NCBI GenBank assembly: GCA_030280995.1
Contig: JASXTE010000007.1
Location: 4,200,001-4,264,000 of the forward strand
Source: Hemileia vastatrix
Lineage: Eukaryota > Basidiomycota > Pucciniomycetes > Pucciniales > Zaghouaniaceae
Length of the DNA: 64,000 bases
Direction: 5' to 3'
Below are positions 4,823-49,636 of this stretch, piece after piece. A model generated the notes under the pieces. It was given only the letters and a program-made list of their open reading frames with translations. It searched no databases and was not told the origin of the DNA. A program made the position numbers and the translations under genes. Numbering within the stretch: position 1 is the first letter of the stretch; every line of letters starts with the position of its first letter.

Positions 4823-4826
4823 TTTC

Positions 4827-18792: not shown

Positions 18793-18846
18793 TTCAGAAA
18801 AGAAAAATTGACCACACCCTCTATAGGATGTAACCACAAACAACCC

Positions 18847-21005: not shown

Positions 21006-21024
21006 GATAAAAAATAATACAAAT

Positions 21025-21284: not shown

Positions 21285-21599
21285 CATAACACCCTATATT
21301 TTTGATTTTATAATTTTAACAACCCCCATAAAAAAGTTAAAAGAAAAAAAGAGAAAAAAGAAAATAATCTGAAACTACTATCTAGCAAAATCATAACTAA
21401 AAAAATCAAAGAAAGTCCAGCTCCATGGATGGTCCAGATTAAGAGAATTTCCAGTAAGAGAAAGTCCAGTCCATAGAAATGATCACTGGGTGGGCTCCCT
21501 CCAATAAGTAAAAATGATGGGATACCACCAGTGATCCACCACCAACCCAAAAAAACCAACGATAAAGCAGCCAGTCCCAAATCAGTTTAAAGTTATAGT

Positions 21600-22040
21600 G
21601 GACTTGAAACCTGAATAATAAACAACAGAGCTAGAATTCAACTAGGAAAACCAAAAGACTTGAGACAGACATTCTGGGGTAACTGTTCTCCAGAGCAGCC
21701 AGCTCATCAGTTACCCCCACACTTGCCAAAATAAAATCTGGAAGCCCACCCTGGGTACCTTCTAACAAAAACACAACATCCAACACAATAAACCAAAACC
21801 AATAAGAGGGAAGAGTCCAGCACTTGAAACCCAAAGGAAATTCCAGTTAAAAGTCATAGAGGACTAAAACCTGTGAAAAGAAACCAATACTCGGGTTCAA
21901 CCAAATTAAGAGAAAGGGTTGGAAACAGACAATCTGGGGTAACTGTTCAACAGAGCAGCCAGCCCATCAGTTACCCCTACACCTCCCAAGATCAAATCTA
22001 GAAGCCCCACCCATGGGTACCTTCTAACAAAAGGTTTCCA
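21600..22040 (-). repeat. Tandem hairpin units HP1 and HP2 of A1
   Basis: HP2 at 21676-21717 and HP1 at 21936-21977 both pair GGGGTAACTG with CAGTTACCCC perfectly, 260 bp apart, in the same order as A2 and A3 when read on the element strand. The loops differ in sequence, so the stem is better preserved than its surroundings. Confidence 0.8.
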
Positions 22041-22109
22041 ACACAAAAGTTGCTCTGCAAAACCAAAAATTCCAAAATTTAAAGAACTTTCCATAGTTTA
22101 TCCTCATTG

Positions 22110-23068
22110 TGGAGTCAATCTTCTTCATGTCTAGTGCCTCTGGGATAAAACCTCTTCACTTGATCTGCAGCCACTCTCTTCTTTAAGACTGCACCATCCA
22201 ACTCTTCCAAAACATAAGAACATCCAGACACCTGAGATCTGACTCTGTAAGGTCCATTCCATCTGTCAGCAAACATTTTTCCCCACTAACTCTCCAAACT
22301 TCTATTATAAACCAAAACCAAACAGCCAGATTTCAAGGGATTCCGGAGTCTATGATCCAACTTCTTGTCCCAGTATCTGACTGATTGATTCCTAATCTTC
22401 ATCATTCTAGATTATGCCTTCTCTTGACATTCCTCTCTACATTTCAACTGTAGAATCCTGGCACAGAGCAATTCTTCTGTTGAGTTCACACCATCCCAAT
22501 CAATTCCAAGATAAGAGACAGCTTCCAAGTTCACTGGTAGAACAGATTTCTAACCAAGCATTGACTCATAAGTAGAATAGCCAGTTGTACTCTTCACAGT
22601 GACCCTATCAGCAAATAACACCAAGGGTAAATAATGTCTCCACTTTTCAGCACTAACCCCACACATCTTTACCACAGCATTCTTGATAACTTGATGGCCT
22701 CTTTCAACCATGCCTTCAGCTTCAGGATGATAAGGTGTAGCCACTCTAACTTTAGAACTAACACTAGCCACAGCTTCTTTAAATTTGGCACCAAACTCTG
22801 GCCCGCCATCAACAGTCACCAACTTCATCAACCCATACCTATAAATCCACTCCTTCTTCAAAAACGCTGCCACATACTTGGCAGTCAAATTAACCAGAGG
22901 AACTGCCTCAACTCATTCAGACAAATCATCCCTGGCAACAATTAAGTATTTATACCTGCCCTCTTTAATATGGACAGCATCCGGACTGACTCTTCCAAAA
23001 ACAGTTGATTCACCAGTAGCACGGCCAACCTCTTTAGGTTTCAAGTTACTTCTTCTTTGTCACTCTTC
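22110..23068 (-). pseudogene. Integrase and 3' end of pol, A1
   Basis: The integrase core inserts the cDNA into host DNA. Visible are DAVHIKEGRYKYLIVARDD (first Asp), VTVDGGPEFG (second Asp) and PYHPEAEGMVERGHQ (Glu), followed by SVRYWDKKL and a DRWNGPYRVR C-terminal block, with the end near 22110 (HNEDKLW). The zinc domain is broken: the CxxC cysteines are TGA stops near 23070 (A3 has CEEC). Another stop replaces the Trp of the GWVEAV motif near 22917. A single uninterrupted stretch is 22888-22550. This copy cannot make an intact integrase. Confidence 0.85.
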
Positions 23069-24118
23069 TCAAGATTGAACCCAACCCTGCACAGCCAACT
23101 TCATACCTGGCCACCAAAATCTGTCAGCTACTCTTCTATAAGTCTCCCCAAAGCCTCTATGACCAAGGTCTTCATGCAAAGACTTCAACACAACTTCTTG
23201 ACCCTTCTTCTGAGTCACCACAACTTGAGGATTAGGATGTCTCCTCCTCATCAACCTTCTTCCTGACACATAAAATCCAGGACTCTTCTTCTTGATTGCC
23301 ACCCAAGTATCATCATCACAACTATCTGGCCTCTCCAAGGTCAACAGATATTCCACCATAATAAAATAAAACCCAGACTGACCCCAGGTCTCATCTTCAA
23401 AATCCAACAAAACAACATCCAAGGGTACAACTCTTTCATCAAAATCACCAGTTTGAACATGAGCCAATTGATCAGCCCAAACAGGACACCAATCCTTAAA
23501 TTTTGGCACATCCTTCTCTTTCCACTGAACCTTGTGAGAATCTAGTTCACTAACAAAAACACCATTTTCCAAATTTGAGCTGTCCAAATCAACAACTCCT
23601 TCTTCATCAACAAAAACATCCTGAACACCAGAATCAAGATCCGATCCAGCCAGTTTAGCCTCTTGGGGGAGGTCAGAAAAATTTTCAGCACCCTTTGCGC
23701 TGGTCCTAACCACTGGAACATTTTCATTAAACTTTTCAGCCTCAGAATCTTCATCTGTAGGTGGCCTCCTTGATAATCCATCAGGCATTGTAAAAGTTTT
23801 GCCTGGTTTGTGTACCAGGTCAAAAGAAAAATGTTGAATAAATGCCACCCACCTAGTCATTGGAGCACTTGGAAGACTAGGTGTATTGATCATCTGAACT
23901 AAAGATTTTGCATCCACCTGCAGCTCAAAATTCTGCCCCCTTAAAACAGTCTGTAGCTTTTTTAAAATTTTTGCTACACCGCACAATTCCAACTTAGATT
24001 GAGAATACCTAGATTCCACCTCATTAAACACCACAGACTCATATCTTACTGGCCTGACCCTCCCAGTTTTATCTTCCTGAGACAAAACAGCACCAGCAGC
24101 AATATAGCTTGAGTCCAC
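23069..24118 (-). pseudogene. RNase H and integrase zinc-domain part of pol, A1
   Basis: Starts DSSYIAAGAVLSQED. RNase H residues are visible: Asp in VDSS (partly beyond the frameshift), Glu in KLEL, Asp in QVDAKS and Asp in MPDGLSRR. An acidic linker of about 150 residues follows, then the integrase N-terminal LHEDLGHRGFGETYRR ... FWWPGMKLAVQ with the two histidines. The frame ends at a stop where CEEC should begin. RNase H degrades the RNA template. Confidence 0.85.
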
Positions 24119-24420
24119 TGCCAGATAAATTTTCCAGCACCAACACCATAATCCAACTTGTGAAGAACAATATCTTCCCCAACAAGCTTTTTCAACTTCT
24201 GAAAAGCCTCTTCACACTCTTCAGTCCATTCCCAATCTGCATCTTTCCTGGTCAACCTCCTTAAAAGTGAAGACAACAAATAAAAATCCTTAATAAAAAT
24301 CCTGACATATACACACACACCCAAAAATCCCCTGACTTCAGTAGTATTTTTAGACCTTGGCCATGACTGAATTTTATTAATCTTTTTCTTTGCCATAATA
24401 TTTCCCTCTTTAAATACCAC
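24046..24420 (-). pseudogene. RT connection region, A1
   Basis: KKKINKIQSWPRSKNTTEVRGFLGVCVYVRIFIKDF ... LRRLTRKDADWEWTEECEEAFQKLKKLV is the thumb/connection segment after the Gypsy RT palm. A frameshift near 24130 separates it from RNase H, and a stop near 24433 separates it from the palm. Confidence 0.85.
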
Positions 24421-24435
24421 ATGACCCAGAGCTTC

Positions 24436-25248
24436 CTAAGCAGGAAGACAACAACATAATTTTGACCCTGAAATGGTCAAACCGGCCTCTTCAATCCTAA
24501 ACAACACTCTCTCTAGAGTTATTGCATATTCCCTAACAAACCTCCTTATGCCAGGGCTCTCCGTTAACACCTCATTACCATACTCAGTTGATGGTCCTTT
24601 GATTCCATCATCATAAATAAAAATACCAGCATAAGTTAGAACCTCATCCTGCGAAATCCAAGCCATTTGTGCTTGATATACTGCCACTGAATTAGTTGCT
24701 CCTTGAGGCAGCCTAGTGAGCTGAAATATTCTCAAAGGAGTCTCAAAAGTTTTGAGAGGCCTTGAATCCGTATGAAGATCCCTCTCATCATAACCACCCA
24801 TAATATCACCCAAACCATAACACACCCTTCCAGCAAAAGCTTCAAAAAAATCCTCTGCACTTGGTGGCATACCAGCGTCCTTGATAGTGACTCTATTCAA
24901 GGCTCTAAGATCATGAACCACCCTCAACTTTCCATTCTGCTTCTTTACACAGAAAACCAGACTTGAGTAACTGGATGTCAATTTTTTGTATAACCCAGTC
25001 CTGACTCTTTTCCTAAAAATCTCCAAAAAATCCTCTCTGATAGCAGCTGGAATCAGAATAGGTTTGATTTGCCAAGTTTCATGACAAACCACAGGAAGCA
25101 AGTAAGGCTCCCCATAAGAGTGCTTTAACACACCCCTTTCCTCCTCAACAAAATCCGCAGCTTTTTTCCTTAGCACAATAATGTGCAACAACAACTTCTT
25201 TTCTTCTTCATACAACCACCCATCAGGACCAAAATTAACAACTTTCAT
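24436..25248 (-). pseudogene. Reverse transcriptase, A1
   Basis: Ty3/Gypsy RT. SSYSSLVFCVKKQNGKLRVVHDLRALN (fingers), YGLGDIMGGYDERDLHTDSR (palm, first Asp), LPQGATNSVAVYQAQM and the catalytic box. The box reads FIYDDGIKGP where A3 keeps FIDDSGIKGP. In an ungapped alignment the first Asp of the DD pair is Tyr, so activity is doubtful. One reading frame covers most of the domain. Confidence 0.88.
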
Positions 25249-25251
25249 CCT

Positions 25252-25815
25252 TTACACAGTCACCCTAGCTGTCTCTACATATTCTGGAGGATTCTTCAAC
25301 AAAGGAGTACAGTACGGATCTATTGACAAATGAGGTCTCTTCAAGGGTGGATTCAAACCCACAGGCATAGGCTCATTGACAGGCCTAATCTTCTGCGCTA
25401 CCTTCTTATACTTTGCCACTCCACATTCAACTTGTGGGATCTTCAGGAAATCTTCACCACCAGACCTGGAAAAAAAACCAAGGGTTTCCCCATCTTTCAC
25501 ATGTGTGGCCAAGGTAATGTTTTTGAAAGGTGAAGAAGAAACCCTAGTTGTGCACAATTGTGAGAAATTACTTTTAGACCCCAATCTCACCACTCCAAAA
25601 CTTTTCCGCAATTCCAAATCATCATCTTCACTTCCATCTTCCAAATATTCAAATCTTGATTCATCTTTAGAATCAACTTTTTTAAAATTAGGCAGTTTAT
25701 CCTCACGCTGGAGGCACAAAAATTGATCTTGATGATATTCTTTCTTCATAATTTTCTTCAGTTTGACCTCATGCTGGAGGCCCAAAAATTGATCTTTATA
25801 ATCTTCTTTCTTCAT
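25252..25815 (-). CDS. Pre-RT linker of A1 with a duplicated 22-residue unit
   Basis: Region between protease and RT. It opens with two tandem 22-residue units (MKKEDYKDQFLGLQHEVKLKK and MKKEYHQDQFLCLQREDKLPN), followed by an acidic EYLEDGSEDDDLEL patch. It then joins the segment conserved in A3: KSFGVVRLGS..., NITLATHV, LGFFSRS, VGLNPPLKRP. The units are absent from A3. The frame ends directly before the RT frame. It is part of the polyprotein, not a separate gene. Confidence 0.6.
   Translation of the reverse strand: MKKEDYKDQFLGLQHEVKLKKIMKKEYHQDQFLCLQREDKLPNFKKVDSKDESRFEYLEDGSEDDDLELRKSFGVVRLGSKSNFSQLCTTRVSSSPFKNITLATHVKDGETLGFFSRSGGEDFLKIPQVECGVAKYKKVAQKIRPVNEPMPVGLNPPLKRPHLSIDPYCTPLLKNPPEYVETARVTV
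25480..25625 (-). repeat. Segment duplicated within A1 (copy 2)
   Basis: Similar to 26780-26930, including TAGACCCCAATCTCACCACT and GTGCACAATTG. A3 has one copy only. The two copies flank the CACTA-like element m2 and the 22-residue repeats. Confidence 0.75.
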
Positions 25816-25849
25816 TATCTTCAGATTTTTTATGATTTTCTTGAATTAT

Positions 25850-26736
25850 CACCACACAATATGGGGGGCGGACTTGCTAGCAAGTCCGCAACCTTGAACC
25901 CTAATTCATATCTTTTTGAGCACACATTGAGGAAGTGATGAAACCATCATGAAGAAGTATTGAATTTACTTTGAACACACCTTGAAGCTCATGTGAACAC
26001 AAATGGGGCTACAAGGGCTGGAAAGGCTGGAGAGAGGGGTGAGGAAGGGTGTATGGGGTAGCGAAAAGGTTGGGAAAGAGTTGGAAGGGAAGATTAAGGG
26101 TTACGAGGCATTTAAAATGAAGAAAGGGGTCTGGGAGAGGTTGAGAGGGGTGAAATGGGGATCAAAAGAGGATGGCATACAATGGGGCTGGGAGGATAGC
26201 GAAAGGCATGGGAAGGGAAGACAAGCATGTGTTGATAGAATTGAAAGGGATGGAGATTGGTGCAAACAGAGTGTGAAAATAGGAGGATGAACTCTGTTCT
26301 TCGGGCGAAGAACAGAGTTCACTTCCATAAAATATTAGCTGAAACATAGTTTTCAATTCTGTAAAAACAGTTGTAAGTAATAGAAAAAGTCACTGATTTT
26401 TTTTATATGTAATCTGAAATTTTTTAATAAAATTATTGTATTTAAGAATTGCATTATTGTCAATCAATTTTTATTGATCAAATTAATTTAATAAAGTATT
26501 ATTTTAATAAGCTGTTTCAAAAAATACTTTGCATTGAGTAGACTCATGGAATGATTTTTTCTGGCTTCCATTCAGTTATCCTCACACTTTCACTATGTTT
26601 TCAATATAGATCCATTGTTATTTGTGTGATACTTCAAGTGAAAGTTCAGTATTACTTCAGTCTGAGTTCCATCTGATTTCCATCTGACTTCAAGTTGCGG
26701 ACTTGCTAGCAAGTCCTCCCCCTATATTGCGTGGTG
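25850..26736. mobile_element. CACTA-like non-autonomous element m2 (887 bp)
   Basis: The TIRs of about 45 bp start CACCACACAATATGGGGGG (left) and CACCACGCAATATAGGGGG (right, inverted), with TAT duplications at 25847-25849 and 26737-26739. Both TIRs contain GGACTTGCTAGCAAGTCC (25870-25887, 26699-26716). The interior holds a purine-rich block and a perfect 32-nt hairpin at 26289-26320. No transposase is present. Confidence 0.88.
26289..26320. repeat. Perfect 15-bp inverted repeat with a 2-nt loop
   Basis: GAACTCTGTTCTTCG, GG, CGAAGAACAGAGTTC inside element m2. Every pair matches. Confidence 0.95.
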
Positions 26737-26779
26737 TATCTTGAAATTTTTAACTTCTTTTCTTGATTTTTCTTATGAC

Positions 26780-26930
26780 CTACAAAAATAACCAGGTGTT
26801 TCCCCAAAGCTAACAGGTGTGGCCCAGGTAATGTTTGTGAAAGGTGTAGAAGAAACCCTAGTGGTGCACAATTGGGAGGACTTACTGTTAGACCCCAATC
26901 TCACCACTCCAAAACTTTTTCGCATATCTT
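26780..26930 (-). repeat. Segment duplicated within A1 (copy 1)
   Basis: Reads MRKSFGVVRLGS ... SQLCTTRVSSTPFTNITWATPV on the minus strand, the same polyprotein segment as 25480-25625. It directly continues the A1 frame from the protease side. Confidence 0.75.
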
Positions 26931-27341
26931 TCAACAAAGATATATAACCAACCTTCTTTCTTAAGCTTGAATTAAAAAAAATTGAGAATCTTGAGAGAGA
27001 ACAGAGACTTGATAAAAAACTTGATGAATACTTGCAGTGAAAAGAAACATTAAAAAGAAAAAGTTGAAAATCCATTTGGTATATCTCCAAGGGAGCTGAC
27101 CTACTACAACCTGGGATTTCCTCATCTTGGGGAGAGGTTTTAGCACTATGGTGATCATCCCTCCTCATTCTAAAAAAGACAGACCCTCACTAGAGCCTGA
27201 GCCACACTCCAAAAAACCAGAGGAAGCACCCACTTCTCTTCTTCTCCTACAACAATCCATGCACTGGCACATTGAAGATAAACCAGGCCTGGTCTCCCAA
27301 CCATCCTCTCCAGGGAATGATAACCTCATGTGAAGTCTCCT

Positions 27342-28973
27342 TTAATCTTCACCAGTCAACTCCAAACTGATTCGCAAATCAAATTGATAACCAATTCTTT
27401 CCTGAAAATTCATCAAGAATGGCCCACCCAAAACAGCTTTAACTGTTCCCTTAGCAATATAAAAATGAACCTTCCCTGAGGCTCCACCAACATCTAACCT
27501 CACAAACTCAGAAATTCTAACCAATTCAGTGACATGGTAACCAATCCCTCTCAAATTCCCACCAATACCAGTTTTGATGGGGAGGCCCAAATGAGTAGCC
27601 TCAAACAAAGAAATTAGGCTTATCTGAGAACCTGAATCCACCAATACCCTTGCCTCCCTTCCATTCAGAGTGAAATTGACATAACCCAGAGGAACAGAAA
27701 AACTAGTTTCCAACCCCTCACCAAACTTTTCAGCAGAATCACAAATGTATTCCACCTCCCCAGAAGAAACTCTTCTCCTGGTCAACAACATTTTCTGTCT
27801 ATCAGCCAACCCTGGACTGATAGCATAAAATTCCCCATAAGAAAGGGAAACCTGACCCTGATTCATCCTTTCAAGAACAGAGTCCATAAAATTAGATTGA
27901 CCAGAAACCACTGGCCTCTCAAAGTGAGCCCTTGGCTTCACTACCTTGGTCCTAGAAGCTTCTTGAGGACTAGCACCACCAACAGATTTACCATCAACAG
28001 GAACCAAACCAGATCCCTCACCAGAACCCCTAACTCCAGCAGGCTTTGGCAATGAAGCCAAAGGGACATCCTCCTCAGAGTCAGAATCAAGATCCATTGG
28101 CATTGGCTCACCATTCATGTCCAATGCATCAAAACTGGGGGGGCCCATATCAGAAATCCACTTCTGCATCTTGTACAGCTCCTCTTTTCTGTACCTCTTC
28201 CTAGCTGCACTCAGCTTAGGATCCGCCTTTGAAGCCTTTGGCTTTGGTTGGGCCTGAGAACTGCTCTTGGGCCTTCCCACCTTCCCTGCTTCCACACCAT
28301 GAACAACAGCCAAGCATTCTCCACTTGAATGTCCACCACAGGAATACAACTCCAAACCACCAAAGGAAGTAGAAAAGTAGACCTTATTGACCTCCTTCCC
28401 CTTTCCCTTGACATCATCATCTTCCTTACCAGAAGACTTCCCCTGATCAGGAATCTCCTCAAACCTTGGCCTCCTTTGATTTAGACCACCCCTTCTCCTG
28501 ACCAAATCAACAGGAGCCTTACCCTCAATGGGCTTCACAAATGAGCCATCAGGGAAGTTGAAAACCCTGCCATCAAATTCCACCTTTCCTTCAGACACAT
28601 CCCTGTTCAATGCCCAACAATCATTGGACCTGTGCCCCCTCCTCCTGCAATAAGAGCAGACCCAAGGATCACTCCTACCAGCCCTCCTATCAAAATCTCT
28701 AGGCTGAGAAGGTGCCTTATTGACCTTCTTAGCCTCCTGAACAAAAATATGCAGCTTCTTTGTGAGATCAGCCAACTGCTCCACCACTGGGTCCCTCTCC
28801 TGTTTGGGAACCTGCACCATATTCTTCTCCTCTTTCTTCACCCTAACTTCCTCTTCAGCCAAAGCCTCACTGACTTTGCTGAAATATTTGGCACACTTCT
28901 CCTGATATGTGTCCACAGACAATAACATCAAATGGGCCTCAACAGCCTCCTTCAACTTATCCAAGGCAGGCAA
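27342..28973 (-). CDS. Gag nucleocapsid and protease of A1 (543 codons)
   Basis: C-terminal part of Gag followed by the aspartic protease. After a charged helical stretch (EEVRVKKEEKNMVQVPKQ) comes a perfect CCHC knuckle, CSYCRRRGHRSNDC (C-x2-C-x4-H-x4-C), at about residues 106-119, for RNA binding. An acidic linker precedes the protease near residue 440: FTLNGREARVLVDSGSQISLIS with the catalytic DSG, and LGGPFLMNF further on. It is intact from 28973 to the stop at 27342, but a stop at 28977 cuts it off from the N-terminal Gag. Pol follows in a separate frame. Confidence 0.85.
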   Translation of the reverse strand: MPALDKLKEAVEAHLMLLSVDTYQEKCAKYFSKVSEALAEEEVRVKKEEKNMVQVPKQERDPVVEQLADLTKKLHIFVQEAKKVNKAPSQPRDFDRRAGRSDPWVCSYCRRRGHRSNDCWALNRDVSEGKVEFDGRVFNFPDGSFVKPIEGKAPVDLVRRRGGLNQRRPRFEEIPDQGKSSGKEDDDVKGKGKEVNKVYFSTSFGGLELYSCGGHSSGECLAVVHGVEAGKVGRPKSSSQAQPKPKASKADPKLSAARKRYRKEELYKMQKWISDMGPPSFDALDMNGEPMPMDLDSDSEEDVPLASLPKPAGVRGSGEGSGLVPVDGKSVGGASPQEASRTKVVKPRAHFERPVVSGQSNFMDSVLERMNQGQVSLSYGEFYAISPGLADRQKMLLTRRRVSSGEVEYICDSAEKFGEGLETSFSVPLGYVNFTLNGREARVLVDSGSQISLISLFEATHLGLPIKTGIGGNLRGIGYHVTELVRISEFVRLDVGGASGKVHFYIAKGTVKAVLGGPFLMNFQERIGYQFDLRISLELTGED

Positions 28974-28976
28974 CTT

Positions 28977-29544
28977 CTAGTCCCTATTAGAAAGAGTCTT
29001 CATCAAGTGCTTCCTTGACAGCTCCTTCAACACATCCACCCTGACATCTCTAGCCATGGCAGACCAAAAAACATCTTTGGCAGAATTTTCATGTGCCAGC
29101 TCCTCCACTTCCACCAAGTATTCCACCACAGGATCAAGCTGTAGCAGAACCTTTTTGTAACTATGCAAGTTACCAACACCATCATAAGATTGCCATTCAC
29201 TGACAGCCTTTTTCAGATCCACCATAGTGAACCTGACACCCCATCTATCTACCATCTCTACACAATAGCTTTCAATCCCTCTTCTTGTAGCCAAGCATGG
29301 CCACAACCTCCTTCTCAACTTCCTTATCACCAATGAAGAAGATAATCTGCTTCACCAAGTCCAGGTAAGAAGCACCATCCACTCCAGAAGAAGTTTCATA
29401 CTTCTCCAGAAACCACTTGACATCCTCCCCATTAAACTTGCTACCATCCCAAGTTTTAATCCTAAAACACTCCCTGACCATCACAGCAGGAGGACCTTCC
29501 CCCCCACTGACAGTCACCACAGGAATAGAGGAACCAGAAGCCAT
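28977..29544 (-). pseudogene. N-terminal Gag of A1, frameshifted
   Basis: Starts MASGSSIPVVTVSGGEGPPA (start 29544), then FRIKTWDGSKFNGEDVKWFLEKYETSSGVDGASYLDLVKQIIFFIGDKEVEKEV. After a frameshift near 29280 it continues as VDRWGVRFTMVDLKKAVSEW ... VEYLVEVEELAHENSAKDVFWSAMARDV ... MKTLSNRD, to a stop at 28977. This is the capsid domain shared with A2 and A3. Confidence 0.85.
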
Positions 29545-29615
29545 TCCTCCAGACAAAAACACCAAAAAGAGCCAACCAAAGAAAACAGAGATTCCAAAGA
29601 ACTAGCAAGCTCTAC

Positions 29616-29632
29616 CCCCACTTTGGGTGCCA
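29616..29632 (-). promoter_or_regulatory. Primer-binding site of A1
   Basis: Minus strand TGGCACCCAAAGTGGGG, four bases inside the 5' LTR. Confidence 0.8.
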
Positions 29633-29636
29633 GAAA

Positions 29637-30726
29637 TGTGGACAATCCTATAGTATTAGCTATAGGCCTTGACCAAGGGAGTTGGAGAAAAACCAGAGAG
29701 AAAATCCCCTGTCCCTTTAGAAAAATAGAGTGAGATTTACTTGCTAAGTTAAGTTGGCTCCTGTTTGCTAAAGCCCCTTTTTCAACACACTTGACTGCTT
29801 GATGAGCCAAGAAAGTAGTCCCCAGACAGACTACCAGACCAAAGAACTGAAATGTAGACCAATGTCCACACCAGAGAAAGCAAAGATACTTGATGTAGGC
29901 TACAAATCCACACCAGAGACAGAAATAATACTTGATATAGCTTTCAAGGCTATAACAGAGAACCTGTTGCCAAAGTTGAGTTAAATGAAGAACTAATCTT
30001 GCAACAAACACAGTAAATTGTGGCCAAAAACATTGAAAACTGAGTGAGGAACAAGGATATCACTTCTGGATGGTTTTATGATAATTAAAGTTGCCCCAAA
30101 CTGTCTTATTCAGTATGAACACACCGACCACTATCTAAGAGACCATGCACACCAACAAATTTGGCACCTGTACCAGCCAAATTGAATAAAAACCCTCCAG
30201 AAGAGCTCCCCAACCTTCTAAAACAGAGGTGGATGGGCCGCCCATAGTCAGAGGTGCCGCCTGAAGCAGCCCAGCCTCCCTGAAGCCAGAAAACCAATAA
30301 AAACATCTAATCTACTTAGAAAAATTCACTACAAATACTAAAACCCTTAAAACACAAAATTATGCTATAACAACATTGAGACATGAAATATAGAGCTAAA
30401 TTAGCCCTATCTAATGGTACTAAGCACTTAACCCTAATACTTAAGGTTATCCCGTAAAATGCAAAAAACAAAATTAAACAGCTATCTTTTGTAACTGAAA
30501 AATGAGAAAATGACCCCTTAAAACTTAGAATATGGAAAATATCATCAAAACATGAAATATAGAAAAAACCGGGGCTATCCAATGATAGTACCCACATACC
30601 CACAGTCCCAATATTCACAGAATAAATCCATAAAAACACCCAATTCTTCAACAGATGTCAATTAAGACATGCACAAACAGCGCCAAACAACACAACAAAG
30701 GCCCCTGCCAATGTTGGAAGATCACA
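29637..30726 (-). repeat. A1 5' LTR (1090 bp)
   Basis: Pair of 17023-18113. It contains a GC cassette at 30225-30288. The outer terminus reads TGTGATCTTCC where the 3' LTR has TGTGGTCTTCC. Confidence 0.92.
30225..30288 (-). repeat. GC-rich cassette in the A1 5' LTR
   Basis: Same block as 17611-17673 with several G-to-A or C-to-T type differences, including loss of the ACGTC core. Confidence 0.7.
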
Positions 30727-36966: not shown

Positions 36967-38067
36967 TGTGGTCTTCCAACATTGGCGGAGCCCTTTGTTG
37001 GTCTGTTTGGTGTTGTTTTGATATGTATTAAATGGCATTGTTTAATAATTGGGTGTTTTTCTGGAATTATTCAGCAAATATTGAGACTTCTGGGATGTGG
37101 GTATTACCATTGGATAGCCCCGGTTTTTCTCTATATTTTATGTTATGGTGACATTTTTCATATTCTAAGTATTTAAGGGATTATTTCTCATTTTTCATTT
37201 TAAAATATTGCTGTTTAATTTTGTTTTTTGCATTTTATGGGCTAACCTTAAGTCTTAGTGTTAAGTGCTTAGTACCATTAGAATGGGCTAATTTTCTCTA
37301 CGTTTCCTTTTTCAAAGTTGTTATAGCCTAATTATGTGTTTTAAAGGTTTTAGTAGTTGTAGTTTATTTTTCTAAGTATTTTGGGTGTTTATGGAGGTCT
37401 TTGGTGGTTTTCTGGCTTCAGGGTGGTCCGGCTGCCTCAGGAGGGCCTCCTGACGTCTGGCGGACCACCTTCCTCAGTGCTAGAAGTCTGGGAAGCGTTT
37501 CTAGAGGGGTTTTATGCAATTTGGCACTCAGAAACGCCAAATTTGTTGATGTGCATGGGCTCTTAGATAGTGGTCTGTGTGTATATAGTGAATAAGACTG
37601 TTTGGGGCAACCTTAATCATTATACAACCATCTGGAGGTGATATCCTTGTTGCTCACTCAGTTTTCACTGTTTTCTGGCCACAGTTAGCTGTGTTTGTTG
37701 CAAGGTTAGTTCTTCATTTAACTTAACTTTGGCAACTGTTTTCTCTGGTATAGTCTTGCAAGCTATATCAAGTATTATTTCTGTCTCTGGTGTGGATTTG
37801 CAACCTACATCAAGTATCATTTCTTTCTCTGGTGTGGACATTGGTCTACATTTCAGTTCTTTGGTTTGGTAGTCTGTCTGGAGACTACTTTCTTCGCTGA
37901 TCAGGCAGCCAAGTGTATTGGAAAAGGGGCTTTAAACAACAGAAACCAATTTACTATAGCAGGTAGATCTCACTTATATTTTTCTAAAGGGACAGGGGAT
38001 TTTATCTATGGTTTTTCTCCAACTCCCTTGGTCAAGGCCTATAGCTAGTACTATAGGATTGTCTACA
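36967..38067 (+). repeat. A3 5' LTR (1101 bp)
   Basis: Pairs with 48535-49636. Its cassette (37414-37469) includes GGAGGGCCTCCTGACGTC. Confidence 0.93.
37414..37469 (+). repeat. GC-rich cassette in the A3 5' LTR
   Basis: CAGGAGGGCCTCCTGACGTC core with GGTCCGGC and GGCGGACC arms that pair as an inverted repeat. Related to the Z2 cassette at 46660-46718, which is in the opposite orientation. Confidence 0.75.
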
Positions 38068-38071
38068 TTTC

Positions 38072-38088
38072 TGGCTCCCAATGTGGGG
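38072..38088 (+). promoter_or_regulatory. Primer-binding site of A3
   Basis: TGGCTCCCAATGTGGGG, four bases after the 5' LTR. Confidence 0.8.
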
Positions 38089-38160
38089 TAGGACCTTCTA
38101 GTTCTTTGGAATCTCTGTTGTGTTTGGTTGGTCCTTTTTGGTGATTTTGGTCTGGAAAAA

Positions 38161-39231
38161 TGGCTTCTGGTTCATTTATTCCTGTGGTGACTGTCAGTGG
38201 GGGGGAAGGTCCTCCTGCTGTGATGGGTTAGGGAGTGTGTGAGGATTAAAACTTGGGATGGTACCAAATTTAATGGGGAAGATGTGAAGTGGTTTCTGGA
38301 GAAATATGAAACTTCTTCTGGTGTGGATGGTTCTTCTTACCTGGACATGGTGAAGCAGATCATTTTCTTCATTGGTGATAGGGCAGTGGAGAAGGAGGTT
38401 GTGGCCATGTCTAGCTACTAGAAGAGGGATTGGAAGTTGTTGTGCAGGGAGATAGTGGATAGATGGGGTGTCAGGTTCACTATGGTGGATCTGAATAAGA
38501 TTGTCAGTGAATGGCAGTCTTATGGTGGTGTTGGCAATTTACTCAGTTATAGGAAGTTTCTGCTGCAATTTGATCCTGTGGTAGAATATTTGGTGGAAGT
38601 GGAGGATCTGGCACATGAAAATGCTGCCAAAGATGTTTTTTGGTCTTCCCTGGCTAGAGATGTCAGGATGGATGTGTTGAAGGAGTTGTCAAGGAAGGAA
38701 TTGATGAAAACTCTTTCCAATGGGGACCAGAAGTTGAGTCCCTTGGACATGGTGAAGGAGGCTGTGGAGGCTCATTTGAAGTTGTTGGCTGTGGACACCT
38801 ATCAAGAGGGGTGTGCCAATTATGTCAGCAAAGTCAGTGAGGCTTTGACTGAAGAGGAGAGTAGAGTGAAGAAGGAAGAGAAGCATATGGTGGAGGTTCC
38901 CAAGCAGGAGAGTGACCCAGTGGTGGAGCAGTTGGCTGATCTGACAAAACAGCTAAATATTTTGGTTCAGGAGGCTAAGAAGGCTAATAGGACTCCTTCT
39001 CAGCCTAGAGATTTTGATAAAAGGGCTGGTAGGAGTGATCCTTGGGTCTGCTCTTATTGCAGCAGGAGGGGGCAAAAGTCCAATGATTGTTGTGCTCTGA
39101 ACAGAGATGTGTCAGAAGGAAAGGTGGAGTTTAATGGCAGGGTGTTAAAATTCCCTTATGGTTCATTTGTGAAGCCCAGTGAGGGGCAAGATCCTTTTGA
39201 TTTGGTCAGGAGAAGAAATGGTCTCAATTAG
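38161..39231 (+). pseudogene. Gag of A3
   Basis: MASGSFIPVVTVSGGEGPPA starts at 38161. A frame change at about 38228 leads to RIKTWDGTKFNGEDVKWFLEKY, and a TAG at about 38419 is followed by RDWKLLCREIVDRWGVRFTMVDL. The zinc knuckle is CSYCSRRGQKSNDC: the His of CCHC is Gln, so zinc binding is probably lost. It stops at 39229-39231. Confidence 0.88.
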
Positions 39232-40362
39232 AGGAAGCCAAGGTTTGAGGAGATCCCTGATCAGGGGAAGTCTTCTGCTAAGGCAGATGAAGATGTCAAG
39301 GGGAAAGGGAAGGAGGTTAATAAAGTTTCTTTTTCTACTTCCTTTGGTGGTTTGGAGTTGTATTCTTGTGGAGGAAATTCAAGTGGTGAGTGCTTGGCTG
39401 GTGTCTATGATGTTGAAGCTGGAAAGGTGGGAAGGTATAAGAGTAGTTCTCAGGCCCAACCAAAGCCTAAGGCTTCAAAGGCGGATCCTAAGCTGAGTGC
39501 AGCCAGGAGGAGGTACAGAAAAAAGGAGCTGTACAAGATGCAGAAGGGAATTTCTGATATGGGCCCCCCCCAGTTTTGGTGCATTGGACATGAATAGTTA
39601 GCCAATGCCAATGGATGTTGATTCTGACTCAGAGGAGGATGTCCCTTTGGATTTATTGCCAAAGTCTTCTGGAGTTAGAGGTGTTGGTGAGGGATCTGGT
39701 TTGATTCCTGTTGATGGAAAATCTGTTGGTGGTTCTTGTCCTCAGGAGATTTATAGGACCAAGGTAGTGAAGCCAAGGGCTCACTTTGAGAGGCCTGTAG
39801 TTTCTGGCCAATCCAATGTCATGGAATCTGTTCTAGAAAGGATGACTCAGGGTCAGGCTTCCTTTTCTTATGGGGAATTGCACGCTATCAGTCCTGGGTT
39901 AGCTGATAGACAAAAAAATTCTTGACCAGGAGAAGGTTTTCTTCTGGGGAGGTGGAATACATCTGTGATTCTACTTAGAAGTTTGGTGAGGGGTTGGAAA
40001 CTCATTTTTCAGCTCCTCTGGGTTATGTCAATGTCACTCTGAATGGCAGGGAGGCTAGGGCATTGGTTAATTCAGGTTCTCAGATTAACTTTATTTCTTT
40101 GTTTGAGGCTACTAATCTGAGCCTCCCCATCAAGACAGGAATTGGGGGGAATTTAACAGGGATTGGTTGTCATGTCACTGAGTTGATTGGGACAGCTGAA
40201 TTTGTTAAGCTGGATGTTGGTGGAGCCTCTGGAAAGGTTGATTTTTACATTTCCAAAGGTAATGTAAAATCTGTTTTAGGTGGACCATTCTTGATGGATT
40301 TCTAGTCAAGAATTAGTTATCAGTTTGACATGGGAATCAGTTTGGAGTTGGCCGGTTAAGAT
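39232..40362 (+). pseudogene. Gag-protease linker and aspartic protease of A3
   Basis: Frames 39352-39597, 39605-39925 and 39994-40305 parallel A1. The protease site reads ALVNSGSQINFIS: the catalytic Asp of DSG is Asn (AAT). LGGPFLMDF and a degraded end follow. Nonsense changes and shifts split it. Inactive as it stands. Confidence 0.85.
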
Positions 40363-40560
40363 GAGAGGAGGCTTCACATGAGGTTATCATCTCCTGGAGA
40401 TTATGGTTGGGAGGCCTGGCCTGGCTTGTCTTCAATGTGCCAGTGCATAGATTGTTTTAGGAGAAGGAAAGAAGTGGGTGCTGCCTCTGGGTTTTTGGAG
40501 TGTGGCTCAGGCTCTAGTGAGAGTCTGTCTTTTTTAGATTAATAAGGGCTGATAGCCCTA

Positions 40561-41398
40561 GTGCTACAACCTCTCCCCAAGATGAGGAAATCCCAGGTTG
40601 TAGTAGGTCAGCTCCCTTGGAGATATACTAAGTGGATTATCAACTTTCTCTTTTTAATGTTTCTCTTCTCTGCAAGTATTCTTTATGTTTTTTGTCAAGT
40701 ATCTGTTCTCTCTCAGGATTTTCAATTATTTTTAATACAACTTCAAAAATGAAGATTGGCTATATATCTTTATTGAAAGATATGCGGAAAACTTTTGGAG
40801 TGGTGTGATTGGGGTCTAAAAGTAAGTCCTCCCAATTATGCACCGCTAGGGTTTCTTCTACGCCTTTCAAAAACATTACCTTGGCCACACATGTGAGAAA
40901 TGGGGAAACCCTTGGTTTTTATTCCAGGTCTGATAGTTAAGATGTCTTGAAGATCCCTCAAGTTGACGGTGGAGCCACAAAGTACAAGAGGGTAGCGCAG
41001 AAGATTAGGCCTGACAATCAGCCTATGCCTGTGGGTTTGAATCCACCTTTGAAGAGACCTCTGTTGTCAAGAGATTTGTACTGTACTCCTCTGGTGAAGA
41101 ATCCACCTGATTTTGTGGAAACCACTCGGGTGACTGTGGAGAGGTTGTAAGTTGTTAATTTTGGTCCTGAATGGTGGTTGTCTGATGAGGAAAAGAAGTT
41201 GTTGTTGCACGTTATTGTGCTTAGGGAGAAAGTGGTGGCATTTGTTGAAGAGGAAAGGGGTGTGTTGAAAACTCTTATGGGGAAGCTTACTTGATTTCTG
41301 TGGTTTTTCATGAGACTTGGCAAATCAAACCTATTCCAATTCCAGCTGCTATTAGGGATGATTTTCTGGAGATTGTTAGGGAAAGAGTCAGGACATAA
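40561..41398 (+). pseudogene. Pre-RT region of A3
   Basis: Contains one copy of the MRKTFGVV ... SSQLCTARVSSTPFKNITLATHV segment and MPVGLNPPLKRPLLSRDLYCTPL. It lacks the 22-residue tandem units of A1. It is broken by stops and shifts, including before RT at about 41397. Confidence 0.7.
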
Positions 41399-42169
41399 TT
41401 GTATGAACAATCAACTTCTAGTTACTCAAGTCCGGTTTTCTGTGTCAAGAAACAGAATGGGAAGTTGAGGGTGGTGCATGATCTTAGGGCCTTGAATAGA
41501 GTCACTATCAAGGATGCCAGGACACCACCAAGTGCAGAGAACTTTGTGGAAGCTTTTGCTGGAAGGGTGTGTTATGGTTTGGGTGATATTATGGGTGGTT
41601 ATGATGAAATGGAACTTCACACTGATTCACGGCCACTCAAAATGTTTGAGACTCCTTTGGGAAGATTTCAGCTCACTAGGTTGCCTCAAGGAGCAACTAA
41701 TGTTGCAGTATATGAAGCTCAAATGGCTTGGATTTTACAGGATGAGGTTCCAACTCATGCTGGTATTTTTATTGATGACAGTGGAATAAAAGGACCCTCA
41801 ACTGATTATGGAAAGGAAGTGCTGAAGGAGAACCCAGGAATAAGGAGATTTGTTTGGGAATATGCAATTACTCTAGAGATAGTATTTTTTAGAATTGAAG
41901 AGGCTGGTATGACCATTTCTGGGTTAAAGTTTTGTTGTTTTGTTCTTTCTCTGGAAATTCTGGGTCATTTTTTATGTAAAGAGGGAAGGATTATGACAAA
42001 GAAGAAAGTTAATAAATTTCAGTCATTGTTAAGGCCCAAAAATATTACTGAAGTTAGGGGATTTTTGGGAGTTTGTGTGTACCTCTGGATTTTTATTAAG
42101 GATTTTTCTTTATTGGCTTCAATTTTGAGAAGGTTGACCAGGAAAGATGCAGAGTGGAAATGGACATAA
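41399..42169 (+). pseudogene. Reverse transcriptase of A3
   Basis: SSYSSPVFCVKKQNGKLRVVHDLRALN, YGLGDIMGGYDEMELHTDSR, LPQGATNVAVYEAQM (one residue shorter than A1) and the catalytic box GIFIDDSGIKGP with both Asp kept. The connection follows to a TAA at 42167 where A1 reads TEEC. Confidence 0.9.
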
Positions 42170-42904
42170 GAAAGTGAAGAGGCTTTTCAGAAATTGAAGA
42201 AGGTGGTAGGTGAAGATATTACTCTTCACAAGTTGGATTATGGAAGGGAAGCTGGAAAAATATATCTGGCAGTGGACTCAAGTTATATTGCTGCTGGTGC
42301 TGTTTTGTCTCAGGAAGACAAAGCTGGGAAGGTCAGGCCAGTAAGGTAAGAGTCTGTAGTTTTTAATGAGGTGGAATCTAGGTATTCTCAGCCAAAGTTG
42401 GAATTGTGTGGTGTAGCAAAAATTTTGAAGAATCTACAAACCATTTTGTGGGGGCAGCATTTTGAGCTGCAGGTGGACTCTAAATCTCTGGTTCAAATGA
42501 TCAACACACCTAGTCTTCTAAATGCTCCAATGACTAGGTGGGTGGCATTTATTCAACATTTTTCCTTTGACCTGGTACACAAACCAGGCAAAACTTTTAC
42601 AATGCCTGATGGATTATCAAGGAGGCCACCTACAGATGAAGATTCTGATTCTGGAGAATTTGATGAAGATGTTCCAGTAATTAGGGCCAGCGCAAAGGGT
42701 GCTGAAGATTTTTCTCTCCTCCCCCAAGAGGCTAAACTGGATGATTCTTCTCGCCTCCACCAAGAGGTTAAACTGGATGGTTCTTATCTTGATTCTGGAG
42801 ATCAGGACGTTTTTGTTTATGAAGATGGGGCCGTTGTTTGGGATGGCTCAAAATTAGAGAATGGTGTTTTTGTTGGTGAACTGGATTTTCTTAAGATCCA
42901 GTAA
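42170..42904 (+). pseudogene. RNase H of A3
   Basis: LAVDSSYIAAGAVLSQED, a TAA near 42348, then VESRYSQPKLELCGVAKILK, LQVDSKSLVQMINTPSL and MPDGLSRRPPTDED. The acidic linker has a 17-18 residue internal duplication (LPQEAKLDDSS / LHQEVKLDGSY) not seen in A1. Confidence 0.88.
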
Positions 42905-42916
42905 ACAAAAAGAGAG

Positions 42917-43786
42917 GTGCCAAAGCTTAGGTATTGGTGTCCTGGATGGGCTGGTTGTGTTGCTCATGTGTACACCAGAGATTTTGATGATAGGGTTTCA
43001 CCCTTGGATGTTGATATGTTGGATTTTGAAGGTGATACCTGGGGTCAGATATGGTTTTATTTTATTATGTTTGAATATCTGTTAACCTTGGAGAGGCCAG
43101 ATATTTTTGATGATGATACTTGGGTGGAAATCAAGAAGAAGAGTCCTGGCTTTTATGTGTCAGGAAGGAGGTTGATGAGGAGGAGACATTTAAATCCTCA
43201 AGTGGTGGTGATTCAGAAGAAGGGTCAAGAATTGGTTTTGAAGTCTTTGCATGAAGACCTTGGTCATAGAGGCTTTGGGGAGACTTATAGAAGGGCAGCA
43301 GATAGGTTTTGGTGGCCAGGTATAAAGTTGGCTGTGCAGGGTCCGGTTCAATCTTGTGAAGAATGTCAGAGAAGGAGTCACTTGAAACCTAAAGAGGTTG
43401 GCCGTGCTACTGCTGAAACAACTTTGTTTGGAAGAGTCAGTCTGGATGCTGTCCATATCAAAGAGGGCATGTATAAATACTTGATTTTTGCCAGGGATGA
43501 TTTGTCTGGTTGGGTTGAGGCGGTTCCTTTGGTGAATTTGACTGCCAAAAACATGGCAGAATTTTTGAAAAAGGAATGGGTGTTTAGGTATGGGTTAATG
43601 AAGTTGGTGACTTTTGATGGCAGTCCAGATTTTGGAGCTGAATTTAAAGAAGCCGTCGCAAGTATTGTATCTAAAGTCAGAATGTCTAAACCTTATTATC
43701 CTGAAGCCAAAGGCATAGTTGAAAGAGGCCATCAATTTATCAAAAATGCTTTGGTAAAAATGTGTGGAGATAGTGCTGAAAAATGA
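42917..43786 (+). pseudogene. Integrase of A3
   Basis: Zinc domain LHEDLGHRGFGETYRR ... SCEECQRR with both His and both Cys. Catalytic Asp in LDAVHIKEGMYKYLIFARDD, Asp in VTFDGSPDFG and Glu in YYPEAKGIVERGHQ. Intact over 289 residues, but preceded by a stop at 42902 and ended by TGA where A1 has Trp (AEKWRHY). Confidence 0.9.
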
Positions 43787-44310
43787 AGGCATTATTTACC
43801 CTTGTTGTTATTTGCTGATAGGGTCACTGTGAAAAGGACAACTGGCTATTACCCTTATTAATTAATTTTTTGGAAAAAAGCTCTTCTACAGGTGGATTTG
43901 GAAGTGTCTCTTATCTTGGAATTGATTGGGATGATATATTCTCAACAGAAGATTAGCTATGTGCCAGGATGCAACAGTTGGAATGTAGGGAGGAATGTCA
44001 AGAGAAGGCAAACTCTAGAATGATGAAGATAAGAAATCAATCAGTCAGATACTGGGACAAAAAGTTGGCTCATAGACTCAGGAATCCCTTGAAACCTGGT
44101 TGTTTGGTTTTGGTGTATAATAGAAGTTTGGTGAGTCAGTGGGGAAAGATGTTTTTTGACAGATGGAATGGACCTTAAAGAGTCAGATTTCAGGTGTCTG
44201 GAGGTTCTTATGTTTTAGAGGAGTTAAATGGCGCAGTCTTAAGAAGAGAGTGGCTGCGGATCAGGTGAAGATATTTTATTCTAGAGTCACTATAAGTGAA
44301 AAAGATTGAC
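43787..44310 (+). pseudogene. C-terminal integrase and end of pol, A3
   Basis: HYLPLLLFADRVTVKRTTGY, then MKIRNQSVRYWDKKLAHRLRNPLKPGCLVLVYNRSL and DRWNGP, as in A1, with several stops and shifts. Ends near HNEDKLW (about 44330). Confidence 0.8.
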
Positions 44311-44394
44311 TCCACAATGAGGATAAACTATGGACCATTCTTTAATTTTTAATTTTGGTGATGCTGTGCATCTGTTTTGTTGGAAACTTTTTGT

Positions 44395-44830
44395 TAGAAG
44401 TTACCTATGGGTGGGGCTTCTAGATTTTTTTGGGCAAGTGTGGGGGTAACTGGTTGGCTGGCTGCTCTATCAACAGTTACCCCAGATTGTCTGTTTCTAA
44501 CCCCCTCTATTAATTTGGTTGAACCCTAGTATTGGTTGTTTTTCTTCACAGGCTTATTAGTCCTCTATGACTTTTAACTGGAAATTCTTTTTGTCTTCAA
44601 GTGCCGGACTCTTCACGCTTATTGGTTTTGGTTTAATGTTTCAGATTTTGTGTTTTTGTTAGAAGGTACCCAGGGGGGACTTCTTGATTTTATTTTGGCA
44701 AGTGTGGGGGTAACTGATGAGCTGGCTGCTCTGTAGAACAGTTACCCCAAATTGTTTGTTTCAAGTATTTTTCTGTCCTAGTTGAATCCTAGTTCTTATT
44801 TTTGTTATTCAGGTTTTAAGTCCACTATGA
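44395..44830 (+). repeat. Tandem hairpin units HP1 and HP2 of A3
   Basis: HP1 44443-44483 and HP2 44707-44748, both perfect GGGGTAACTG / CAGTTACCCC stems, 264 bp apart. Confidence 0.82.
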
Positions 44831-45125
44831 CTTTAAACTGGCTTGGGACTGGCTTCTTTTGTCTATTTGGTTTGGTGGGGGATCACTGGTCGTCTCCCAT
44901 CATTTTTACTTATTGGAGGGAGCCCATCCAGTGATCATTTCCTTGGACTGGACTTTCTATGCAGGAGGACTTTGTCTTTTTCTTTTCTTTAATTTTTGTG
45001 TCTATGGTTGTGTTTGATGGTATTTTTAGATTATTTACTTTTTTTCTATTTTTTTCTTTTAATTTTTTATGGGAGTTATTAGGATATAAATAGGGAAAAT
45101 TCACAAAATTATATTATATGGTGTC

Positions 45126-45353
45126 ACCACATCAGGGTCACCTGGATGTGGGCAAGCATTGGTTGGGAAAGGCTCATCAATTGGCCAGGCAATTCTATTT
45201 TCTTTCTTTTTTCTTTTTATTTTCTTAATTTCTATTTAAGTCATCTTTCTTTCAATTCATTTAAATTTTGTTTAATAGTGTATCCACATCAAGGTGCACT
45301 TGGATGTGGGTAAGGTATCAGGGGATCAGCTCATAAATTGGCTGGGGATACCA
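45126..45353 (+). repeat. Two CACATC/GATGTG modules of A3
   Basis: 45126-45195 and 45285-45353. The second keeps the GGTATC ... GATACC arms. AT-rich AAATA-type simple repeats follow at about 45380-45475. Confidence 0.72.
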
Positions 45354-45581
45354 TTTTTTTTAGTATGTTAGTAGTTTAAAATAAAAACAAAAATAAATAA
45401 AATAAAATAAAAAATAAAATATAAATAAAATAAAAATAAAAATAAATTAAATTAAATTAAAATAAAAATAAAAAAATTATTCTATATATATCTGTTAATA
45501 ATTATTCTTCTCTCTATTCAGTGAATTATTAATTTCTTTTTTATATTAATGTCTGGAAGAAGAAGCCTCCAGCGGTTGGTC

Positions 45582-47122
45582 CTAATTATGGTGGTGTTTT
45601 TGCTTTTTGTTAGGATTGGTAGAAGAACTATGTTCCTTAAGATGTAGGCGGCTGGAAAGCAAATATGGGTTGTAATGGTCAGGGACCAGAGTAGAAGGTA
45701 AATTTTGGGAAGATGTGGAAGAAGCAGGAATAGAGTTTTGGAAGGTGTGCTTGATTATTCAAAACATCTTCCAGTGGTCATCAAGCAGCTGTTTTCATAG
45801 ATTCTTTTCAAACTCATTCAATGGACTGTGGAGAGCAAAGGCTTTAAGCATATTGGAACACATCATTCTTAGATGTTGTTTCATGTTGGCGTAATCCAGC
45901 ACTAAGATAGTTTCTATAGGTTGGCCAATCCCCATTGTAGTTTCAGGAGGCAGGGTTCCAACTACACAGAAGAATTAGATCAGTAATTTTTCATGGTTAA
46001 ATAAATTGGATTTATTTATTTGGTACTTACAGATTGGGAGCTCATCAAATTTGTAAGCGGCAGGGATTTTAGCTGCTGAAGAAAGCTGAATGGATGTTGA
46101 AGGAGGATCAACCAGATAGAGGTAGGGATTCTCATGATCATTCTCTAAATGTTTTTGGGAAGATGTACTATAAGGAGGGTGTTCCTCTGGCCTGGTTGGA
46201 GAAGCAGGGCTGCTGCTGTTGTTGTTGTGGATATTATTATTGATTGGCCCAGTTGGGTCGGACACTGGTGGTGGAGTACCAGGGTTGTTGAATGAAGGAT
46301 CAGGAGAAGGTGACCTGGAAGCTGATTGTGATTTGCTAGATGAAGATCTAGAAGAAAGGGACCCATCAGAAGAATAATTGGTGGCCAGAGGGGAGGTGTA
46401 GTTAGTTCTTCTTGAAGTAACCGGAGATTTTTGTTTGGAACCAGTGTTGCGTGCTCTGATGTTTTCAGAAGGTCCTCTGGCAGGCTTTCTAGAGATGTTA
46501 GATTTTTTGGGGTTGTCTGTGGAAGAAATTTTGTGTGTGCTCATTGCTTTGGGATCACTAGGAGGTGGTTGCGTAGACTTGTTGGTGTTTAATGGTGTAT
46601 TTTGGCTGTTATCTGGCTGAATTTGGGAGTTTTGAGCCTGATTTTTGCTTTCTGGCATGGAGGGCAGGCCGCCTGACGTTGGGAGGGCCTCCTGGACCCG
46701 GTCTAGCAGCCTGGGAGCTTATTTTGAAGCTGATTTGGCCAAATTTGCTGAGATAAAAGCAGATTCTTGAGAAGATAAAGCAGGTCTTTTAGGAGTGATT
46801 TGGGAATAGAACGGTGTGATATTCTGGAAGGAGCAGAAGAGGAAGAAGAGGAAGCAGGTCCAAGTTCTGTTGACCTGGTAGGAGATCTGGAAATATGTTT
46901 GTGTGAAGGAGAAGGCGGAGTTATTGGATAGTTAAGGTCTCTGTCACATCTTTTCTTTTCAGAGTTGCAAGAATCACAGGCTCTGTTATAGAATTTGGCC
47001 TGAGGAGTTGGAAGAGTGAAATTACAAGGCCTGCACATGTGGATGCACTGTTTACAAGCATAGTCCTTTGAAGCAGTGAAACAGGGAAGGTCTGATGGGT
47101 CAAAATCTGGGGATTCAGCCAT
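45582..47122 (-). pseudogene. Z2 of A3: antisense cysteine-cluster protein, spliced, with lesions
   Basis: Starts MAESPDFDPSDLPCFTASKDY at 47122. The cluster CKQC-IHMCRP-C, 15 residues, CDSCNSEKKRC is a swapped Zn2Cys6-like arrangement. After a frameshift near 46790 the frame reads PKRPALSSQESAFISANLAK, a TAA, then in the same frame APRLLDRVQEALPTSGGLPS (from the GC cassette) and MPESKNQAQNSQ, followed by a Ser/Pro/Arg/Asn-rich middle to AAYKFDELPI. A GTAAGT...TGTGTAG intron (46030-45962, 69 nt) joins in frame to GTLPPETTMGIGQP ... LDYANMKQHL ... DDHWKM and a lysine-rich tail with KKQKHHH, ending at 45582. Two TGA stops lie in the last exon. Cysteines, intron position and C-terminal domain match A1. 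Confidence 0.68.
46660..46718 (-). repeat. GC-rich cassette inside Z2 of A3
   Basis: Minus strand GACCGGGTCCAGGAGG, CCCTCCCAACGTCAGGCGG. It keeps the Z2 frame (APRLLDRVQEALPTSGG). Confidence 0.75.
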
Positions 47123-47266
47123 GATCTGTGAAGGAAGAACAATAAAAGAAAAGAGATTAAAGAAATTTTATCAGTGATGTGTAGATGATGAAGAAAAAGT
47201 GGAAGTTCAGCAGGTTGGCTGCAGTGCACTGTGCATGGAGGTGGCTCCACCGTTATATGCAAAATG

Positions 47267-47815
47267 AGGAATAGTCCGTCAAGACTTTAAACTGAACACT
47301 TGTAGTCCGTCAAGACTTTAAACTGAACACTGGTAGTCCTCCAAGACTTAAAACTGGCTGGTTATTTAAAGATTGCTTCAAGATTTTTATTTTTTATTAC
47401 TACTGTGGATCTGTAAGTCTGTCAAGACTTTAAACTGAACACTGTGGACAGTCCATTAAGACTTTAAAATGAGAAATGGTACAGTCCCCCAAGACTATAA
47501 ACTGAGGATGGTTGTTGGTTGAGTCCTTCAGGACTATAAACTGATAATGTTGAGTTGGTGTTATTCTGGCAGAGGGCATCCAAGGGGGAGTCTCTGAATT
47601 TTGTTAAGGCAAGTGTGGGGGTAACTGATGAGCTGGCTGCTTTGTAGAAGAGTTACTCCAGAATTTTAGTTTGTTTCTTTGGTCTTTAATGTTTTGATCT
47701 CTGGTTCTGTCTTTTTGATTCAGGTTTTTAAGTCCCCCAAGACTATAAAATGAGGGCTGTTAGTCCCCCAAGACTTAAAACTGAGGATTAGTCCCCCAAG
47801 ACTTAAAAATGAGGA
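47267..47815 (+). repeat. AGTCCCCCAAGACT motif array and HP3 of A3
   Basis: About ten motif copies (AGTCCGTCAAGACTTTAAAC and variants) with a weakened HP3 at 47618-47659. It lies between Z2 and Z1. Confidence 0.85.
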
Positions 47816-47846
47816 GTTTTTTATTTTTATTTCTAAATCAAGATTT

Positions 47847-48486
47847 TCAGGCAAAAAGCAATGACAGAAAAGAATCAAGAGATGTAACAAAATGTTCAGC
47901 ATTGGCTTTGAACTGGTGAATGAGGTTCTTCCTTTTCTCAAGGTCCTGTGGGTTCCTGGCAGGAGTGGATTGGAAGTAATTTAGGATGAGATGCTTCTGT
48001 TGAGAAGAATGTTGTTAGAAGTTGTCTTTGATGGTGGGCAATGGATTAGGTGGGGGTTCTTCAATGGCTCCCACATTGTTATCATCACTTTCTGGATGGA
48101 AATGAACTGGAAATTTGTGAGATTGAATTTCAGTATGAAGAAGTATTGGGCTTACCATCAGAAGGACCAGGGATGGTAGAACTAGTGTTTTTAGCAGGGT
48201 TGTCACTCTTTTTTGAAGGGTGTAATTTGTTGACCAGTCTGGGGATCAGGATGGATGGTCTGGATCTTTTGGTGCTGGTGGAAGGTGGATCAGGTTGTGG
48301 AGGAGGAGAAGATTTTGAAGAGGAAAATGGACCAGGTCTGAAACAAGTCTTCTTCCTAGAGTGACAGGCATCACAGGAGGTTTTGTAGGGATGAGCTGGT
48401 GGTGTGATGGTACAGATGAGATTGTTGTCAATGCAGTATTGGCAAGGACCCATGTCAGTAGAAGATTTGGAGAGGAAGCTGAACAT
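47847..48486 (-). pseudogene. Z1 of A3: antisense cysteine-cluster protein, spliced, one stop
   Basis: MFSFLSKSSTDMGPCQYC starts at 48486, 49 bp from the 3' LTR. Cluster: CQYCIDNNLIC, 12 residues, CDACHSRKKTC, then a Ser/Pro linker with KRSRPSILIPRLVNK. A 64-nt intron GTAAGCCC...CATCCAG (48155-48092) must be removed to reach the conserved frame (ESDDNN ... EEPPPNPLPTIKDNF). A TAA at 48017-48015 interrupts it, and similarity to A1 continues (SQQKHLILNYFQSTPARNPQDLEKRKNLIHQFKANAEHF) to the stop at 47847. As the intron is not a multiple of three, splicing is supported here. Function unknown. Confidence 0.7.
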
Positions 48487-48524
48487 GGTGGTTCTGATGA
48501 AGGAGAATGTGGAAATTCTCTATT

Positions 48525-48534
48525 GGATGGAGGA
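48525..48534 (+). promoter_or_regulatory. Polypurine tract of A3
   Basis: GGATGGAGGA next to the 3' LTR, one base different from A1 and A2. Confidence 0.75.
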
Positions 48535-49636
48535 TGTGGTCTTCCAACAGTGGCGGAGCCCTTTGTTGGTCTGTTTGGAGCTGCTTTGATATGTCTTAAA
48601 TGGCATTGTTTAATAATTGGGTGTTTTTCTGGCATTATTTAGCAAATATTGAGACTGCAAGGATGTGGGTACTACCATTAGATAGCCCCGGTTTTTCTCT
48701 ATATTGTTTGTCTTGATGACATTTTTCATATTCTAAGTATTTAAGGGATTATTTCTCATTTTTCATTTTAAAAGATTGCTGTTTAATTTTGTTTTTTGCT
48801 TTTTACGGGCTAACCTTAAGTCTTAGGGTTAAGTGCTTAGTACCATTAGAATGGGCTAATTTTTCTCTACGTTTCATGTCACAATGTTGTTATAGCCTAA
48901 TTATGTGTTCTAAAGGTTTTAGTAGTCATAGTTTATTTTTCTAAGTATTTTGGGTGTTTTTGGAGGTTTCTGGTAGTTTTCTGGCTTCAGGGTGGTCCGG
49001 CTGCCTTAGGAGGGCCTCCCGACATTGGGAAGACCACCCACCTCAGTGCTAGAAGGCTGGGAAGTGTTTCTAGAGGGGTTTTATGCAATTTGGCACTCAG
49101 AAACACCAAAATTGTTGGTGTGCATGGGCTCTTAGACAGTGGTCTGTGTGTGTATAGTGAATAAGACAGTTTGGGGCAACCTTAATCATCATACAACCAT
49201 CTGGAGGTGATATCCTTGTTCCTTACTCAGTTTTCACTGTTTTCTGGCTACAATTGGCTGTGTTTTTTGCAAGGTTATTTCTTTATTTAACTCAAATTTG
49301 GCAACTGTTTTCTCTGGAGTAGTCTTGCAAGCTATATCAAGTATTATTGCTGTCTCTGGTGTGGATTTTTAACCTACATCAAGTATCATTGCTTTCTCTG
49401 GTGTGGACATTGGTCTACATTTCAGTTCTTTGGTTTGGTAGTCTTTCTGTAGACTACTTTCTTGGATGATCAGGCAGTCAAGTTTATTTGAAAAGGGGCT
49501 TTAAACAACAGAAAACAATTTACTGTAGCAGGTAAATCTCACTTATATTTTTCTAAAGGGACAGGGGATTTTCTCTCTGGTTTTTCTCCGACCCCCTTGG
49601 TCAAGGCCTATAGCTAGTACTATAGGATTGTCTACA
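48535..49636 (+). repeat. A3 3' LTR (1102 bp)
   Basis: Pair of 36967-38067. On its minus strand it faces Z1 and so would carry the antisense promoter. Confidence 0.93.
48983..49039 (+). repeat. GC-rich cassette in the A3 3' LTR
   Basis: As 37414-37469 with GACATTGGG in place of GACGTCTGG. Confidence 0.72.

Follow-up and report, generated by a model that had tools for sequence, protein, structure and literature searches.

The 64,000-nucleotide window of the Hemileia vastatrix genome analysed here (contig JASXTE010000007.1, positions 4,200,001 to 4,264,000; G+C content of 35.4%) contains three related long terminal repeat (LTR) elements, A1, A2 and A3. Two of them, A1 and A3, carry a pair of spliced genes, Z1 and Z2, on the strand opposite to gag-pol. 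Selection keeps these genes working and their products resemble zinc-cluster proteins, which suggests that the element carries its own gene regulators. The reading preferred here, with a probability of about 0.6, is that Z proteins made from spliced antisense messenger RNAs would act in the nucleus on DNA dyads, tuning the transcription of the family.

The antisense arrangement of both genes in A3, first proposed in the initial annotation, is confirmed by gene frames and intron signals, and so is the presence of equivalent genes, alike in position and orientation, in the oppositely inserted A1. Z open reading frames lie between pol and the 3' LTR in A1, in A3 and at 7/7 LTR-adjacent loci, which supports the earlier view that they belong to the element and not to the locus; the gag-only A2 is without them. 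The window belongs to an assembly of 747.6 Mb in 791 contigs. Genomic copies were collected via their Z region, and 37 A3-type and 13 A1-type copies were used. Introns survive in this RNA-mobile element because the genes are coded antisense. Z1 and Z2 are probably paralogous.

The ratio of nonsynonymous to synonymous substitution rates (dN/dS), suggested earlier as a check on both genes, indicates purifying selection, with values of 0.10-0.55 for segments compared between A1 and A3 and 0.28 for fixed differences. Changes between A1 and A3 are in excess at third codon positions in all four Z segments (p from 9e-4 to 3e-8), and the Z proteins are conserved much like the other element proteins. 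Synonymous divergence (dS) between A1 and A3 reaches 0.57-1.16 in the Z region (45546-48486) whereas in gag-pol (38226-44300) it is 0.28-0.40, that is, about twofold lower, hinting at modular exchange between subfamilies. As regards the mutation spectrum, C>A and C>T are equally common among singletons in the Z region of copies L009-L045, at rates of 0.336 (C>A) and 0.321 (C>T) per major-base site, which is odd for dead repeats.

The Z proteins have the six cysteines of fungal Zn2Cys6 (Gal4-type, PF00172) factors with the spacing C-x2-C-x6-C-x5..12-C-x2-C-x6..9-C, the motif C-x2-C-x6-C in both halves and a basic CD-x-C-x3-KK-x-C half. However, the canonical order, with the basic half first, is reversed in the Z proteins, and the Zn_clus Pfam scores of the Z pieces are at or below the curated cut-off (21 bits against 21 in the segment 48156..48486). 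Neither the fungal-specific regulatory domain nor TRP28 (PF04195) was matched among the Z pieces scanned. The domain is probably DNA-binding, and a cluster with swapped halves would be of structural interest in its own right. In genome G000, 13 canonical Zn_clus matches were found, one on a contig of 33 Mb (C34) and the other twelve within the first 111 kb of contigs that may be small or foreign.

The top repeated motif of the elements is a perfect DNA dyad, AGTC-N6-GACT, which is enriched. The gene frames, intron signals, selection and dyad enrichment were observed directly, and from them a sequence of events may be proposed: a putative antisense promoter in the element would give rise to spliced messenger RNAs for the Z proteins, these would work in the nucleus and bind the dyads, and binding would tune the transcription of the element family.

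Since selection on the Z proteins leaves their step of action undefined, they could instead serve another step, for example through an RNA target or in a nuclear-import or Rev-like role, such as those discussed for proteins of this kind (PMC7264820). An RNA target would fit the conserved sense-strand R1 hairpins, of which A1, A2 and A3 each have three; among 9 copies, their 10-bp stem has one compensatory change and three broken stem cells. This alternative is nevertheless rather unlikely, because the Z cluster resembles a DNA-binding domain and the strongest repeated motif is a DNA dyad.

It is far less probable that the Z genes are functionless passengers, captured from the host by an ancestral element. 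Their splicing and host-type domain are compatible with capture, and antisense capture preserves introns, but the ratio for fixed differences contradicts it. Equally improbable is that the antisense transcript itself is the functional product, through double-stranded RNA and silencing. Retroelement antisense transcripts can act via RNA (PMC7264820), but such a function predicts no codon-position bias, and the third-position excess contradicts it as the sole role, a double role being possible. That the frames are artefacts of alignment or composition, opened by chance in C+T-rich sequence, can practically be dismissed given the dN/dS values, the introns, the cysteines and the existence of two subfamilies.

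Reports of antisense extra genes in plant LTR retrotransposons go back to the 1990s, the functions of these genes being unknown (PMC7264820). The aORF-3R set, made up of antisense frames that lie between pol and the 3' LTR, includes gene23 of maize Grande, rice RIRE2 and Silene Retand, and a nuclear or DNA-binding role, as for the Z proteins, has been proposed for its products (PMC7264820, PMC11963269). In Retand, the antisense frames have a predicted DNA-binding domain, the region in which they lie also contains tandem-repeat arrays, and the family includes non-autonomous elements (PMC11963269). The parallel with the A family is striking, but the Retand domain is TRP28 and that of the Z genes is a zinc cluster; the word "intron" does not occur in the main text of PMC11963269. 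Unlike plant aORF-3R, the A family has two spliced, probably paralogous zinc-cluster genes and a fungal host. Another fungal case comes from the ascomycete Botrytis cinerea. Its Boty-like elements likewise have an antisense extra gene, brtn, whose mentions in PMC8365987 and PMC7264820 include no zinc cluster, and which is set beside the Z genes by description only.

The HBZ gene of human T-cell leukaemia virus type 1 is antisense near the 3' LTR, spliced and endowed with a transcription-regulatory domain, its product being a bZIP protein. By analogy, the Z genes appear to share this logic; on the other hand, their sequence is unrelated, the element bears two genes plus a dyad array, and their antisense promoter is putative. 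HBZ-type regulators are characterised by a promoter in the 3' LTR, a spliced antisense messenger RNA and an effect on sense transcription. Retroviral antisense genes are mentioned in PMC7264820 and PMC11963269, and the likeness to them and to plant Gypsy antisense frames was already drawn in the initial annotation.

Features of the window (LTR identities with gaps left out)
Feature	Position	Strand	Remarks
Element A2, diverged gag	3897..9663	+	LTR identity 94.6%
Element A1, pol on minus, architecture as in A3, inserted opposite way	17023..30726	-	LTR identity 93.5%
Feature within A1 span	18162..18792	+	
Feature within A1 span	19347..20861	+	
Element A3, Ty3/Gypsy, gag-pol on plus	36967..49636	+	TG...CA ends; purine-rich tract preceding 3' LTR
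LTRs of A3	36967-38067 and 48535-49636		92.6% identity
Feature of A3	44559..44832	.	
Z-region coding segment	45546..45961	-	dN/dS 0.16
Z-region intron	45962..46030	-	GT 36/37, AG 36/37 A3-type copies
Z-region coding segment	46031..47122	-	dN/dS 0.10 (Cys part), 0.55 (linker)
Z-region interval with putative acceptor	47126..47170	-	AG kept in 30/37 A3-type, 13/13 A1-type copies
Feature of A3	47273..47803	.	
R1 hairpin/inverted repeat, third copy, conserved	47580..47672	+	Others at 44408-44500 and 44669-44761
Z-region coding segment	47847..48106	-	A1-A3 dN/dS 0.16
Z-region intron	48107..48155	-	Donor GT 33/37, acceptor AG 35/37 A3-type copies
Z-region coding segment	48156..48486	-	Pfam Zn_clus 21 bits (cut-off 21); A1-A3 dN/dS 0.19

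The family belongs to Ty3/Gypsy, with TG...CA LTR ends and the order protease, reverse transcriptase, RNase H and integrase (Asp_protease_2, RVT_1, RT_RNaseH and Integrase_H2C2 in A1). The LTR identities point to old insertions. A perfect target-site duplication flanks A2 (ACGG/ACGG), 3/4 positions agree at A3 (ACAT/GCAT) and no clear match is seen at A1. The best named pol relatives come from two rust fungi, Austropuccinia psidii and then Puccinia striiformis; besides these, there is a record assigned to Xanthomonas sp. A2111, whose protein is 80% identical to the rust-type Gypsy RNase H across 43% of the query; contamination of that record is the probable cause. A2 retains an open 533-aa stop-to-stop gag frame (about 41-60% amino acid identity to pieces of A1/A3 gag), dyads and R1 hairpins; neither pol nor Z genes were found in it, and it is likely a non-autonomous partner of the A1/A3 family. 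A weak gag remnant akin to that of A2 lies on the minus strand at 58572-58703 (E 1.4e-4).

A broader and more tentative proposal is that the family may possess a full trans-regulatory circuit of its own, in which two paralogous, circularly permuted Zn2Cys6 factors from spliced antisense messenger RNAs would be matched by cognate AGTC-N6-GACT arrays common to a gag-only satellite family, as an independently evolved counterpart of HBZ/Tax present in many copies in a rust-like genome. As the Z proteins have a recognisable domain and are under purifying selection, and as the element that encodes them also contains a candidate binding site, the regulatory hypothesis is directly testable in yeast. 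If it is true, a many-copy retroelement supplies transcription factors that might also affect host genes close to its copies.
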